From a virus, in IMG/VR virus record IMGVR_UViG_3300028800_000135, positions 1 through 50,046 of that record: a stretch of 50,046 nucleotides of DNA. One strand, given 5' to 3'. A model generated the notes under the pieces. The model did no database searches. It was not told the DNA's origin and was given only the letters and a program-made list of their open reading frames with translations. Below are positions 6,208 through 46,795 of the stretch, piece by piece. Each line of letters begins with the position of its first letter. The first letter of the stretch is position 1. A program made the translations under genes and the position numbers.

Positions 6208-6498
6208 ATGCTACAGTTGAATATAGATATAACGCAACGTGAAAAAGACCTGATCGAAGCTATTCGAGAGGTCAAATTTGGCGAAATGTACGGGGTCGAA
6301 ATTCAGTCGCAGTCTTACTTCAGCGAACACGTCATACTCACCCCCAGCCAGCACGACCTGATCCAAGCGATCAGAAATGGCTTACAAGATATATCGGTAC
6401 TTTCAATTCATAATGGCGATCCGGCCTTTGCTGAAGTTGATGAAGTCATAAACGGCTTCAGATGCCGGAAGAAGATAAAGTTCCCGACTTCCCACTAA
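6208..6498 (+). CDS. Unknown 96-residue phage protein
   Basis: I do not recognise a family. The protein appears to contain two related halves, each with an Asp-Leu-Ile-(Glu/Gln)-Ala-Ile-Arg helix (KDLIEAIREV and HDLIQAIRNG), suggesting an internal duplication. GGAGA precedes the ATG. The gene is isolated between the 27-bp upstream element and a strong terminator, so it may form its own short transcription unit. A dispersed palindrome (6457-6470) lies near the 3' end. Confidence 0.65.
   Translation: MLQLNIDITQREKDLIEAIREVKFGEMYGVEIQSQSYFSEHVILTPSQHDLIQAIRNGLQDISVLSIHNGDPAFAEVDEVINGFRCRKKIKFPTSH
6457..6470. repeat. Palindromic repeat: TTCAGATGCCGGAA
   Basis: Strict match near the 3' end of the 96-residue gene, coding Phe-Arg-Cys-Arg-Lys. 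Confidence 0.72.
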
Positions 6499-6504
6499 AG
6501 AAGA

Positions 6505-6534
6505 GGGCTGACCAAAACGGTCAGCCCTTTTTTT
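6505..6534 (+). terminator. Intrinsic terminator before the portal gene
   Basis: GGGCTGACC (6505-6513) pairs with GGTCAGCCC (6519-6527) around a five-base loop, followed by T7. This is a textbook rho-independent terminator. Portal transcription must read through it or begin nearby. Confidence 0.9.
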
Positions 6535-6555
6535 ATTTACCGGTTGGAGGACATA

Positions 6556-8079
6556 TTGATAGTTTTCCCTGTTTGGTCTGATCTCAGCCGCACCTCCAAT
6601 GCCATGCGAATGGCCTGGGAGAGCGAGCTTGCTATCCGTGATAAATACCGTCGATACTTCGACGGTTTTGTGTTTCAAGAGAAGGTTCCGCTGGAACAGG
6701 GTCTGGAAGGCACTCCTGGCGAAGAAGTTCCCCTGATGTACCCGGTTGGCCTGAATTTGGTCAAGATGCTCTGCCTGGCCCAAACCGACAGCGCCTTTGG
6801 CGAATGGGAAGACCGTGTTGTCAACTGGGAAACCAGACAGGACGACCTGGTCTCCGATGCCTCCAAGGCTGCCATCGACTTGCTGAACGACATCATGACC
6901 AACTCTTCGTTCAACTCGACCCTCTGGGAAGTTGAACTGGAGCGCAACATCTACGGCGGCGGAGCCATCAAGATCTTGCCGGACCTCCAGAACCCCGGCC
7001 ACATTCGCTGGGATCACATTCCGCTGGAAGGCTTCTTCCCGGTCTGGAACCCCGAAAATCCCAACGAACTCTTGGAAGTCTATACCGTCATCGCCATGTC
7101 TGCCGAACAGGCTGCCGCTCAGTACGGCCTTGCGCTCGGCACGGTCAGCAACCAGATCGTACAGCGCATCGAGCACTGGACCCGCACTGAATACACCAAC
7201 GTGGTCGAAGGCGTTCGCATCGATGCCTATTCTGGCGTCAATCCTTGGGGTTTCATCCCGTTCGTTTATGTTCCCCGCTTCCGCACGACCAACTGGTGGG
7301 GCGACGCCATGACCGAGGAAGTGATCACGGTCCAGAACGAACTGAACATGCGGGTGGCGGATATCGGCGACAGTCTCAATTACAACTCTCACCCCGTTCG
7401 CTGGGGTGTCAACCTGCCCCGCTCTTTCAATGCCAAAAACTTCCCGCTCGATCCTAATGCTATGTGGGATCTGGGCCGCACGATTGGCAACAGCCCGGCG
7501 CCTCAAGTGGGCCTCTTGGAAGCCAAAAACCCCGCCCCAGACGGTGCTTTCAACTATGTCAAGTTCCTGTACGACTGGGCGCGCACTTCTTCCTTCGCTC
7601 CCCCGATTGCCTTCGGCGAAGACGATAACTCCGCCGTCAAAGGCGGGCCGGTGCTCGAGATCCGTATGTGGCCTTTGATCAAATACGTGCGCCGCTCGCG
7701 TGCTTACATGGGCGAAGGACTGCTGCGGGCAGCCAGAATGTCCGCTCTTATCCTCAAACAGAAGCGTTTATCCGATGTTCCCTCTCGTGCTCTCGATCAG
7801 ATCCTGAGCGGAAACATCGTTCCTCGTTTTGCCGACATCATGCCGAAAGACCATCAAGCCATCGTCGACGAAGTGGTCAAGCTGATGAGCACTGAACCGA
7901 TCTCGATCTCTGAGGAAACCGCCCAGAAGACGCTCGGTCGTGGCACTGGCGAAGTAGACCGCATCAAGGCCCAGCTCAAAGACAAGGTCTTGACCCCGCC
8001 TATTCCCGATCCCAAGAGCAACAACACCAAGGAAGCTCTTGCTGGCAAAGAAACTCCTCAGCCGGAGGTGGACGCTTGA
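6556..8079 (+). CDS. Portal protein
   Basis: This 507-residue protein follows TerL, has the expected size and is followed by scaffold and capsid genes. Typical portal features are the N-terminal helical region, a central domain with HIPLEGFFPVWNPENPN, and a clip/stem/crown part ending in a Pro- and Lys-rich tail. It would form the dodecameric ring through which DNA enters the head. The start is probably TTG at 6556, five bases after GGAGG (6546-6550); an earlier in-frame TTG at 6544 overlaps that ribosome site and is unlikely. Its stop overlaps the next start codon. Confidence 0.85.
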   Translation: MIVFPVWSDLSRTSNAMRMAWESELAIRDKYRRYFDGFVFQEKVPLEQGLEGTPGEEVPLMYPVGLNLVKMLCLAQTDSAFGEWEDRVVNWETRQDDLVSDASKAAIDLLNDIMTNSSFNSTLWEVELERNIYGGGAIKILPDLQNPGHIRWDHIPLEGFFPVWNPENPNELLEVYTVIAMSAEQAAAQYGLALGTVSNQIVQRIEHWTRTEYTNVVEGVRIDAYSGVNPWGFIPFVYVPRFRTTNWWGDAMTEEVITVQNELNMRVADIGDSLNYNSHPVRWGVNLPRSFNAKNFPLDPNAMWDLGRTIGNSPAPQVGLLEAKNPAPDGAFNYVKFLYDWARTSSFAPPIAFGEDDNSAVKGGPVLEIRMWPLIKYVRRSRAYMGEGLLRAARMSALILKQKRLSDVPSRALDQILSGNIVPRFADIMPKDHQAIVDEVVKLMSTEPISISEETAQKTLGRGTGEVDRIKAQLKDKVLTPPIPDPKSNNTKEALAGKETPQPEVDA

Positions 8080-11790: not shown

Positions 11791-13071
11791 ATGCCTGCTG
11801 GAACTGACGTATCTACCGGTTTGTTGTACAGCCCTGCCATCCCCTCGTGGCAGCGGACTTATTACGAGCAACTTTTGCTCGAAACCTTGCGCATCAAATC
11901 AATTATGGTGCCGTTCTGCGCCATGAAACAGGACTTTCGTGCGCGAGACACCGGTGTCATCAACTACACCGAAGTGTACGACACCGACCCCAATTACAAC
12001 CCGCTGGCCGAGAGTGACATCTGGCTGACCGGGACCCACCTGGACAGCCGGTCCGTGCAGATCTCCCTGGCTATTTATGGGGATACCCTGAAGTTCTCGG
12101 ACTATGCCGAAGTTGTGTCTTTCGTGAACAACGGCGACATGAACGGCCTGGTCCGCAACAAGATCGGCCAAAATCAGGTTGACATGCTGGACATCCTGGC
12201 CCGCAACGCCTACCTGTCCCACCCGAACCCAGTCTACGCTGGCGGAACGAAAACCACCCGCGAGGGTATCGCCACAACCGATATCTTCAATCCAGACTTC
12301 GGTGAGTTGGCCCGCACCCATCTGGAAGAGGCCGAGATCCCCGGTGTGCAGCAGGTCGAAGATGCGGCTGGCCCCGTCATCGTGTGCGTAACCACCCCGC
12401 GGGTTATTCACGACATCCGCACCGCTGCCGCTTCAAAATGGTTGGAAGTGCAGCAGTACGTCGGCACCGACCGGAAATTCACGAATGAGGTTGGTACTTG
12501 GGGCGGCGTTCGCTACATCCGCACCGACCGTATGCGCCTGCGCAACCACGGCGCCGTAGTGGAACAGACAACCCTGTCCAGTGCGACCGTTGTCGGTCAG
12601 GGTGCTGCCTCGACCGTAGACACCGTCTACGCCGTCGGTCAGTCGAACTCGACCCGCTACGTACCCGTCGCAGCCGTGACCGGTTTCGCAGTTGGTCAGT
12701 ACGTGACCATCCATGACCAGAACACCGGAGCCGGTGCTGGTCATCCCCCAGTAGAAACCGATGGCACGCAGGAAACTCGCCGCATCGTTTCCATCGACAC
12801 TGGCAACAAGCGCTTGGTCTTCGAGAAGCCCTTGCTGAAGCCCCATGCGTCCGGCGACTTCGTCACCAATGCCGTCGACATCCATGCCTCTGCCTTCCTC
12901 GGCGGCCCGTCCGTCGTGTACGGCGTTGGCGAAGCTCCGACACCCACCTTCCCGCCCAAGATCGACGACCTGCAAATGGTCAACCGGGTTGGTTGGAGAG
13001 GCTTCCTGAAATTCCAGATGTTCCGGCCCGAGTTCCTCGAGGTCCATTTCACTTCTGGAACCACCAACTAA
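11791..13071 (+). CDS. Major capsid protein
   Basis: This 426-residue protein is placed directly after the scaffold with a strong ribosome site (AGGAGAAC) and highly regular codon use. The overall pattern, an N-terminal arm (YYEQLLLETLRIKS), a central domain with PRVIHDIRTAAA, and an inserted beta-rich domain at about 255-365 with Thr/Val/Gly repeats, resembles N4-gp56/P22-like HK97-fold coat proteins. It forms the icosahedral shell. The inserted domain could be a surface Ig-like or stabilising module. No maturation protease is seen nearby, consistent with non-cleaved coat. Confidence 0.85.
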   Translation: MPAGTDVSTGLLYSPAIPSWQRTYYEQLLLETLRIKSIMVPFCAMKQDFRARDTGVINYTEVYDTDPNYNPLAESDIWLTGTHLDSRSVQISLAIYGDTLKFSDYAEVVSFVNNGDMNGLVRNKIGQNQVDMLDILARNAYLSHPNPVYAGGTKTTREGIATTDIFNPDFGELARTHLEEAEIPGVQQVEDAAGPVIVCVTTPRVIHDIRTAAASKWLEVQQYVGTDRKFTNEVGTWGGVRYIRTDRMRLRNHGAVVEQTTLSSATVVGQGAASTVDTVYAVGQSNSTRYVPVAAVTGFAVGQYVTIHDQNTGAGAGHPPVETDGTQETRRIVSIDTGNKRLVFEKPLLKPHASGDFVTNAVDIHASAFLGGPSVVYGVGEAPTPTFPPKIDDLQMVNRVGWRGFLKFQMFRPEFLEVHFTSGTTN

Positions 13072-37436: not shown

Positions 37437-37465
37437 ATTCTACTTGATAGTCATTTGATTGTCAA
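37437..37465 (-). promoter_or_regulatory. Early promoter of the replication operon
   Basis: On the minus strand TTGACA (37465-37460) and TAGAAT (37442-37437) are separated by exactly 17 bases. It fires leftward into the gene at 37417 and is a likely target of the XRE repressor. Confidence 0.8.
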
Positions 37466-37650: not shown

Positions 37651-38058
37651 ATGTTGATTGATTTGATGAACCAAAAAATGCAGAAAGAGAACATGAGCGA
37701 AAGGGAATTAGCAAGACGGATGAATGTTGCTCCAACCACCATCGCTCGCCTCAAAAAAGGAGAATTTATCGACTTAGAAACAATGTACAAAATTTGTAAT
37801 TGGCTGGGGGTGAACGTTGCTTCAGCCTTGAATGAGAGGGGGATCACAGACGACGCTCTGGCTGCCAAGATGTCTCTTTTGATTGAAGCGAACCCGGACC
37901 TACGGGGGCTGTTTACAGATATGATGAGAGACTTTGCTGAGAGCGATTTATCAGTAGAAGATGTCAGGGAGATCATTCAATATGCCACGTATCGCATTTC
38001 TTCAAAGCAAAAGGCGTCAACCAACATCCTTAGTCGACCAATACAAGGCTCGAGTTGA
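37651..38058 (+). CDS. XRE-family repressor (CI-like)
   Basis: This 135-residue protein has an N-terminal HTH of the lambda-repressor type: ERELARRMNVAPTTIARLKKG, residues about 18-37, followed by a short wing and a helical region. A C-terminal domain of about 60 residues may mediate dimerisation; there is no LexA-type Ala-Gly autocleavage or peptidase motif. It sits between divergent promoters, so it probably maintains lysogeny by blocking the early promoter. GAGG precedes the ATG. Confidence 0.8.
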   Translation: MLIDLMNQKMQKENMSERELARRMNVAPTTIARLKKGEFIDLETMYKICNWLGVNVASALNERGITDDALAAKMSLLIEANPDLRGLFTDMMRDFAESDLSVEDVREIIQYATYRISSKQKASTNILSRPIQGSS

Positions 38059-38233: not shown

Positions 38234-38248
38234 TTCGCTGATTTTGCA

Positions 38249-38278
38249 AAAGACCACTTCAATCGAGTGGTCTTTTTT
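38249..38278 (+). terminator. Terminator after the repressor unit
   Basis: AAGACCACT pairs with AGTGGTCTT around a short TCAATCG loop, with A4 before and T6 after, so it can act in both directions. Confidence 0.88.
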
Positions 38279-38293
38279 ATTGCTTATTTGTGC

Positions 38294-38299
38294 TACAAT
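38294..38299 (+). promoter_or_regulatory. Extended -10 promoter for the structured RNA
   Basis: The extended -10 TGCTACAAT has its hexamer TACAAT at 38294-38299 with no good -35. The predicted transcript would begin near 38306, just before the closing stem of the structured region. Confidence 0.55.
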
Positions 38300-38305
38300 G
38301 GATTT

Positions 38306-38592
38306 ATCCAAGTTAGATGGAGTGTACATCCCTTGATAGTGACGCAGTGAACATCCTGTCTGACCTGTCGACAAGATGGCTCGTGTATCACCCCCTCCTA
38401 CGTGCCATCTTATTCCGCGATGGACAGGCAGTCGATGGAATTTGGAAGTCAGGCGGAACCCCCATAGGTGGTGGTCAAAGGCGGTTTCTTACTGCTCAAA
38501 CACCAGCCCTGGGGGGTGTCGGAAAGAACGAAAGGGTAACGGGCTTACCATTTTATTCTCGAGACATCCGAGCAGATATCTAAGGGATGTAC
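38306..38592 (+). ncRNA. Candidate structured RNA upstream of the integrase
   Basis: This stretch is closed by a perfect 11-bp inverted repeat, GTACATCCCTT (38324-38334) with AAGGGATGTAC (38582-38592). Inside are nested stems: CCTGTC 38355-38360 with GACAGG 38423-38428, enclosing AAGATGGC 38373-38380 with GCCATCTT 38404-38411; ACCCCC 38458-38463 with GGGGGT 38512-38517, enclosing TGGTG 38469-38473 with CACCA 38501-38505; and GGTAA 38535-38539 with TTACC 38545-38549. An extended -10 promoter precedes it. It resembles a multi-branched RNA of about 270 nt; the class is unknown to me. It may instead be the integrase leader or the attachment site region. Confidence 0.55.
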
Positions 38593-38630
38593 GCTTTCGG
38601 ATAACAATCTTAAAGAAAGCGGAGGCGTAC
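38589..38630 (+). promoter_or_regulatory. Competing hairpins at the integrase ribosome site
   Basis: Between the structured RNA and the integrase ATG, CGCTTTC (38592-38598) can pair with GAAAGCG (38615-38621), and GTACGC (38589-38594) can pair with GCGTAC (38625-38630), the latter two spanning the GGAGG ribosome site. The GTAC of the first strand also belongs to the long closing stem, so the pairings exclude one another, which suggests translational control. Confidence 0.4.
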
Positions 38631-38631
38631 A

Positions 38632-39603: not shown

Positions 39604-39607
39604 AACG

Positions 39608-39634
39608 AAAGCCCCCAGTGATGGGGGCTTTTTT
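39608..39634 (+). terminator. Terminator between integrase and convergent gene
   Basis: AAGCCCCC pairs with GGGGGCTT around a six-base loop, followed by T4 on the plus strand; the reverse strand also ends in T-rich sequence. It separates the integrase from the convergent zinc-ribbon gene. Confidence 0.88.
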
Positions 39635-46150: not shown

Positions 46151-46795
46151 CTATGGGATCACTGTCAGAACGTGCTTGCGCATGTTGAAGATCTGAATTT
46201 TGGGCTGCCATTCGCCGACCACGATGTTTTTGACGGCAGAACCGATCAGGCCGCCTGCGATCAAGGCACAGTAAAACGTTGCCTTCATGGTGCAGGGCAC
46301 GTCAGCCACGCCTGTTTCGCTCTCTCCGGCCAGCATCTGGTCATACCAGCCATAGTCGTCCATCGAAACGGTGAACAAGTGCATCTCTTCTGCCGCCATT
46401 CTGGCGTCCATGTACCAGCGCACTTTGCTGTACTTGACCGTTTGCCAGATCTCTTTGCGAGCCGTGATGCTGTCGACGGCGGAGATGATGAACTGAGATG
46501 CCAAAGTGGTCGTGTGATCGACCCGTTCCATGTGATCCCAGACATCGGTGTCATCCGAGAACTCTGCGATCACATCGGCGAGAGCGGCGACCTTTGGCCT
46601 TCCGACGTCTGAAAGCCGGTGGAGCTGGGTGGCGAGATTGACATCGTCGACCGTGTCTCCATCGTAAACATTCAAAAAGCGGACGCCCATCTTGGCGAGA
46701 GCCAGGGCAGTGGTTGCCCCAATTCCGCCGGCTCCGATCAGGGTAATACTGACATTCGAAACATCAAAAAGCTCCATGTGGCGAGTGTGTATCAT
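46151..46795 (-). CDS. E1/ThiF-like adenylyltransferase
   Basis: This 214-residue enzyme has the E1/MoeB/ThiF layout: nucleotide loop GAGGIGA (21-27), YDGDTVD (Asp45, Asp47), NLATQLH (Asn53), Lys68 (GRPKVA), the ISAVDS strand end with Asp108, and Cys168 in DVPCTM as candidate thioester cysteine. It would adenylate the C-terminal Gly-Gly of the ubiquitin-like protein and pass it on. It is short, lacking extra domains, like ThiF of PRTRC cassettes. AAAGGTG precedes the ATG. It is transcribed after the JAB gene with three bases between. A palindrome (46600-46613) encodes Leu-Ser-Asp-Val-Gly. Confidence 0.85.
   Translation of the reverse strand: MIHTRHMELFDVSNVSITLIGAGGIGATTALALAKMGVRFLNVYDGDTVDDVNLATQLHRLSDVGRPKVAALADVIAEFSDDTDVWDHMERVDHTTTLASQFIISAVDSITARKEIWQTVKYSKVRWYMDARMAAEEMHLFTVSMDDYGWYDQMLAGESETGVADVPCTMKATFYCALIAGGLIGSAVKNIVVGEWQPKIQIFNMRKHVLTVIP
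46600..46613. repeat. Palindromic repeat: TTCCGACGTCTGAA
   Basis: Strict match in the E1-like gene, encoding Leu-Ser-Asp-Val-Gly, before the conserved-looking Lys68. Confidence 0.75.

Follow-up and report, generated by a model that had tools for sequence, protein, structure and literature searches.

An inverted repeat before an arm-less phage integrase gene most likely belongs to a DNA attachment site rather than to a structured RNA

What is the long noncoding stretch, closed by an inverted repeat, that precedes the integrase gene (int) of a tailed phage? The locus lies in a virus record of 50,046 bases, which was analysed over its whole length and is referred to here as the window; matches to terminase, portal and major head proteins on its left side are those of a tailed phage. 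An earlier reading made from the letters alone (the sequence-only reading) had proposed the stretch as a candidate structured RNA, similar in overall shape to a retron-type or multibranched RNA, adding as a last clause that it might regulate integration or be the attachment region. That last clause proved the best-fitting part of the interpretation: the repeat before int is most likely part of a DNA attachment site, rather than of a structured RNA.

The features of the locus are collected in Table 1. A short open reading frame, like the HTH regulator gene, precedes the terminator at 38248-38276. There is no further long noncoding gap next to int, which has just a terminator downstream. The 88-aa open reading frame enclosed by the stretch (38317-38583) was rejected as coding, since 31% of shadow ORFs had a codon score at least as high as its -0.09. 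Ahead of the regulator gene, the segment 37437-37566 has divergent promoters (TTGACA-17-TAGAAT on the minus strand and TTGACA-17-TACAAT on the plus strand, 11/12 each) and, at 37442, the inverted repeat acttgatagt-CATTTG-attgtcaagt, which looks like an operator; the segment is probably the lysis-lysogeny switch.

Table 1. Features at and around the stretch before int (positions in the window).
Feature	Position	Strand	Remarks
HTH (Cro/C1-type) regulator gene	37651..38058	+	Upstream of site; Pfam HTH_26 and HTH_3
Intrinsic-terminator-like hairpin	38248..38276	+	Sets the int unit apart from the regulator operon
Extended -10, TGcTACAAT	38291..38299	+	Read from sequence; no good -35; start expected near 38306
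Noncoding stretch read as probable attP and int control region	38306..38631	+	Layout in relatives; ORF 38317-38583 shadow-like
Site S1, AGTGTACATCC	38321..38331	+	Includes 5' arm of the stem
Site S2, AGTGAACATCC	38346..38356	+	Begins 25 bp after S1 (38321); near-copy of the arm, missed in the sequence-only reading
Partial site ACATCC	38564..38569	+	With S3, weak crossover-core candidate 38564-38592
Site S3, AGCGTACATCC	38585..38595	-	Inverted; includes most of 3' arm of the stem
CGGAGGCGTACA	38620..38631	+	Shine-Dalgarno (SD) GGAGG at 38621-38625; may also be a fourth, degenerate site
Tyrosine integrase gene (int), 323 aa	38632..39603	+	SD GGAGG 38621-38625
Terminator-like hairpin after int	39607..39632	+	

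The perfect 11-bp inverted repeat that had been said to enclose about 250 bases is present, with arms GTACATCCCTT (38324-38334) and AAGGGATGTAC (38582-38592) spaced 247 bp apart, and it reaches 14 nt if one mismatch is allowed, the mismatch being a U-G wobble on the plus strand. By itself, the perfect 11-bp repeat is at chance level in the window and its strength against chance is modest, five such repeats no more than 300 bp apart being found in the whole window against 4.7 ± 2.8 expected from Markov shuffles. The inner helices described earlier are also seen in the predicted fold of the plus strand (38306-38600), which has an energy of -108.9 kcal/mol and is somewhat more stable than its shuffles (z of -3.0); the minus strand, folded over the slightly longer stretch 38300-38620, gave a z of -3.95. 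In a genome-wide comparison based on GC regression, the stretch, at a position picked to suit the repeat, had a GC-corrected minimum free energy in the top 0.4% of 290-nt segments on the plus strand and the top 4.5% on the minus strand. Among the strongest GC-corrected plus-strand folds of the window is also 6381-6790, between the terminase and portal genes, which is possibly the other RNA candidate of the sequence-only reading.

A long inverted repeat closing a folded stretch is a trait that the locus has in common with riboswitch-like and retron RNAs; it differs from them in that Rfam gave no match, a reverse transcriptase is missing and the sequence is not conserved in relatives. The Rfam search of the stretch gave no relevant match at the gathering cut-off or at E values up to 10. 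DNA like the stretch was found neither in the phages and plasmids searched nor elsewhere searched, and patterns of the stem arms retrieved no other copy from the viral and genome collections. The absence of a reverse transcriptase had been recognised correctly, with no RVT_1 match in the record, and on this ground a retron was rejected.

The two stem arms belong to a larger set of repeats. The window holds three near-identical 11-mers, AG[TC]G[TA]ACATCC, at 38321(+), 38346(+) and 38585(-), of which the arms are two. None of 300 shuffles reached as many copies, while 3 of 141 other real stretches of the window also have three. Furthermore, ACATCC occurs four times within 340 bp (shuffle p 0.0005), which the earlier reading had overlooked, as it had a complementarity of the 3' arm, at 38588-38599 (+), to 38620-38631 over 12 nt with G-U pairs. 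This complementarity to the SD region is matched by 0.06% of random 19-nt segments, and the hairpin energy has a shuffle p of 0.02; it arises largely because a repeat-like word recurs inverted. If RNA is made, 38588-38599 would be an alternative partner to the closing stem.

The crossover core was not located in the stretch. Half-site similarity gives two weak candidates, the one listed in Table 1 and a second at 38324-38352. Nor was there a plain Xer-type core; among inverted repeats with the 11-7-11 layout, the best is the terminator. A tRNA-derived core is common in attP, though not obligatory, and the stretch has no tRNA, anticodon-arm or convincing T-arm pattern.

The integrase is of the simple type, with core-binding and catalytic domains and a weak match to Phage_int_SAM_4. 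Its core-binding domain begins near residue 9, and an in-frame stop at 38611 precludes a longer N-terminus. With these two domains, and with the stop blocking any N-terminal extension, the integrase is therefore without the arm-binding domain of lambda-type integrases. The catalytic residues R170, H265, R268, H291 and Y300 are invariant in A3 and A4. Xer-type models were matched below their cut-offs and integron-integrase models weakly, with scores far below cut-offs. An excisionase-like gene was not recognised in the Pfam scans made. A ThiF/E1-like protein (Pfam ThiF, E 1.3e-21) is encoded at 46151-46795, in the minus-strand early region.

Searching with the whole integrase protein gave no close relative, nor did DnaB, and scans with TerL, DnaB and the integrase did not yield relatives directly, unlike those with the major head protein. 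The latter (11791-13071) has many relatives 53-72% identical in viral contigs and belongs to the structural module of an uncultivated phage group; the records of these capsid relatives have neither an integrase nor a match to the site and are uninformative on it. Distant integrase relatives, with about 32-46% identity, were found by scanning with the C-terminal part of the integrase.

Four of these relatives with an intact upstream region (L073, L075, L076 and L080) were compared over the gap of about 400 nt before int. Sequence similarity between their gaps and the stretch in the window was not detectable. Fragments of tRNA genes beside int mark attP cores, and such fragments are present in all four gaps: the 3' part of a tRNA in L073, L075 and L080, and the 5' part of a tRNA-Leu, read by eye, in L076. 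Inverted repeats flank the tRNA piece in L073, L075 and L080. In 5/5 gaps, that of the window included, the 400 nt before int contain an inverted repeat of 13 nt with no more than one mismatch, compared with 1.6% of random stretches, and the four other gaps are independent of the original finding. Moreover, a direct pair 24-25 bp apart accompanied by an inverted copy is found in the window, L073 and L080 (1 in 3,000 random stretches) and nowhere else in the window; the window and L073 had guided the design of this statistic, so that it is mainly L080 that is independent of it. L075 and L076 are without the pair.

The sequence of the sites is different in each relative. The anticodon stem of the tRNA in L073 also contains GCAC[GA]G, the word repeated in that gap, and in L080 the word CCTCTGCC sits inverted within the tRNA piece. 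The gaps of the relatives fold about as well as that of the window (z of -3.1, -1.8 and -2.7), as would be expected where inverted repeats and tRNA pieces abound. A regulator-like gene, read by eye, stands ahead of the gap in L073 and L075 too. The sequence-only reading would have given way to relatives that keep int but have exchanged the region and lost its stems; the sequence is indeed unrelated in the relatives, but inverted repeats are present every time. With unrelated sequence and tRNA fragments at this place, and with neither an Rfam nor an RVT_1 match, the structured or retron-like RNA found no support. What appears to be kept is a pattern of repeats round an attachment core, as expected of attP DNA, and no homologous RNA was seen. 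As a caution, inverted repeats upstream of integrase genes may mimic structured RNAs. In the gap ahead of the tyrosine integrase of a Bacillus phage (268TH002, L071; 619-863), words like TGTACGTAGGA occur at 619, 638, 829 and 852, with a spacing of 23 bp between the last two; they may be operators or else sites comparable to those of the window.

A further set of integrase relatives was taken from 299 bacterial genomes. Leaving aside those of the chromosomal Xer kind, most of the set have a tRNA gene directly ahead of int and in its orientation, and one has a tmRNA gene. Anticodon-arm 8-mers recur between the tRNA and int in 4/8 loci tested and are absent from the other four, whereas 8-mers from the rest of the tRNA do not recur there at all. 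Pooled, the anticodon-arm copies number 15 against 0.5 in shuffles, in a test that was not preregistered and whose int starts and arm width were fixed after a first look; copying of the anticodon arm before int is a strong lead. In one locus (L093), ACGCACTAGATT is found twice, 24 bp apart, together with an inverted partial copy, and the tRNA has ACGCGCTAGATT. In L099 (884-1237), a tmRNA gene just upstream of the integrase relative, in the same direction, is a likely attachment site.

We consider it probable, from its layout and that of the relatives, that 38306-38631 is the phage attP combined with the int control region. It is noncoding DNA beside an integrase gene, and it carries repeats of the type that an integrase would bind round a core. 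A search for attB or a host match, in which one phylum was sampled, gave nothing consistent. The extended -10 promoter claimed just upstream can be read from the sequence (Table 1) but was not listed by a consensus scan; if this promoter is used, the int mRNA would have the stretch as its leader.

In loci with a recognisable tRNA, the repeats often copy its anticodon arm, and thus a likely crossover half-site. Since the repeats of the relatives copy this half-site of a likely anticodon-arm crossover, the repeats are probably bound by the integrase itself. The two stem arms would belong to a set of three, or perhaps four, such sites of 11 bp with nearly the same sequence. Because the integrase is without an arm-binding domain, the same domain would bind both the core and the flanking sites. 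The extra half-sites would replace arm sites by loading more integrase near the crossover, would set attP apart from a simple attB, and might repress int. The putative promoter would read through the sites into int; as promoter and int lie on opposite sides of the sites, integration would cut int off from its own promoter if the crossover fell between S2 and the start of int.

The same features might instead describe a structured 5' leader RNA that governs integrase translation in a riboswitch-like manner: the SD would be masked by a 12-bp hairpin (38588-38599 with 38620-38631), which could not form together with the closing helix (about 38320-38338 with 38577-38597). This is unlikely, although promoter and terminator would give a 326-nt leader, the plus-strand fold and the complementarity to the SD region both stand out statistically, and stem-loops in the int 5'-UTR of ICEKp1 attenuate expression (PMC13023037). 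That complementarity is mostly a repeat-like word recurring inverted, the relatives' unrelated, tRNA-containing gaps fold about as well, and the collections searched offered neither an Rfam family nor homologues for a covariation analysis.

We regard it as improbable that the repeats serve as operators through which a different phage protein (an excisionase or the HTH repressor) controls int, with attP located elsewhere or just overlapping them. S1 and S2 do lie just past the expected transcription start and S3 beside the int start, as operators might, and the word CTTGATAGT is common to the stretch (38332) and the divergent control region (37443), though a single shared 9-mer is about what chance gives. 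The site sequence, however, varies from relative to relative and often copies the anticodon arm of the tRNA, which points to the integrase, and the Pfam scans offered no excisionase-like candidate.

It is very improbable that attP folds as a single strand and recombines in hairpin form, as integron attC sites and the attP of CTX phage do. Inverted repeats round the tRNA piece in three relatives and the weak matches to integron-integrase models and Phage_int_SAM_4 would suit it, but a hairpin has no need of direct repeats 24-25 bp apart, this tailed phage gives no sign of a single-stranded stage, and the integron-integrase scores are far too low. A small MITE-like insertion of about 275 bp, to which the terminal-looking 14-nt inverted arms at both ends might belong, is hardly credible and was rejected, since no target duplication was seen, no further copy with these arms occurs in the viral or genome collections, and the same place is repeat-rich in 5/5 loci.

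Read as attP, the stretch is of an ordinary kind; its notable feature is the repetition of half-sites round the core of an integrase without an arm-binding domain. The Brujita-type integration system, reportedly titled simple, arm-less and directionless by Lunt and Hatfull in 2016 (cited in PMC8138268 and PMC6109161), shares core-binding and catalytic domains alone and a site that adjoins int and a regulator gene; as far as its description goes, rather than its attP sequence, the window differs in having half-site-like words that flank the site. In the complex attP of lambda and KplE1, short repeated sites, direct and inverted, likewise lie on both sides of the core and the int promoter is overlapped, with self-repression in KplE1 (PMC2951348). 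Those integrases have the arm-binding domain that is absent here, and in lambda-type systems the arm sites have no relation to the core, whereas the repeats in the relatives of the window resemble the core half-site. In ICEKp1, too, the recombination site lies between promoter and int, and the int promoter is exchanged upon integration in a state-dependent manner (PMC13023037); integration would similarly swap the promoter here, and stem-loops in the int 5'-UTR are possible. ICEKp1 differs in being an ICE, and the crossover position and promoter of the window are predicted ones.

Control of direction by arm-less integrases has been called a conundrum (PMC6109161), and regulation is thought to be less intricate for integrases without the arm domain (PMC8138268). 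Tentatively, and with the odds against it, we suggest that a clade of arm-less phage integrases might employ additional copies of its own crossover half-site in place of arm sites, in pairs with a spacing of about 24-25 bp on one side and in inverted orientation on the other. If true, these would add direction and self-regulation to a system believed to have little elaborate control, and with core half-sites serving as arms, attP and attB could be distinguished without a second DNA-binding domain. The stretch offers a hint of the way in which arm-less integrases may arrange their sites.
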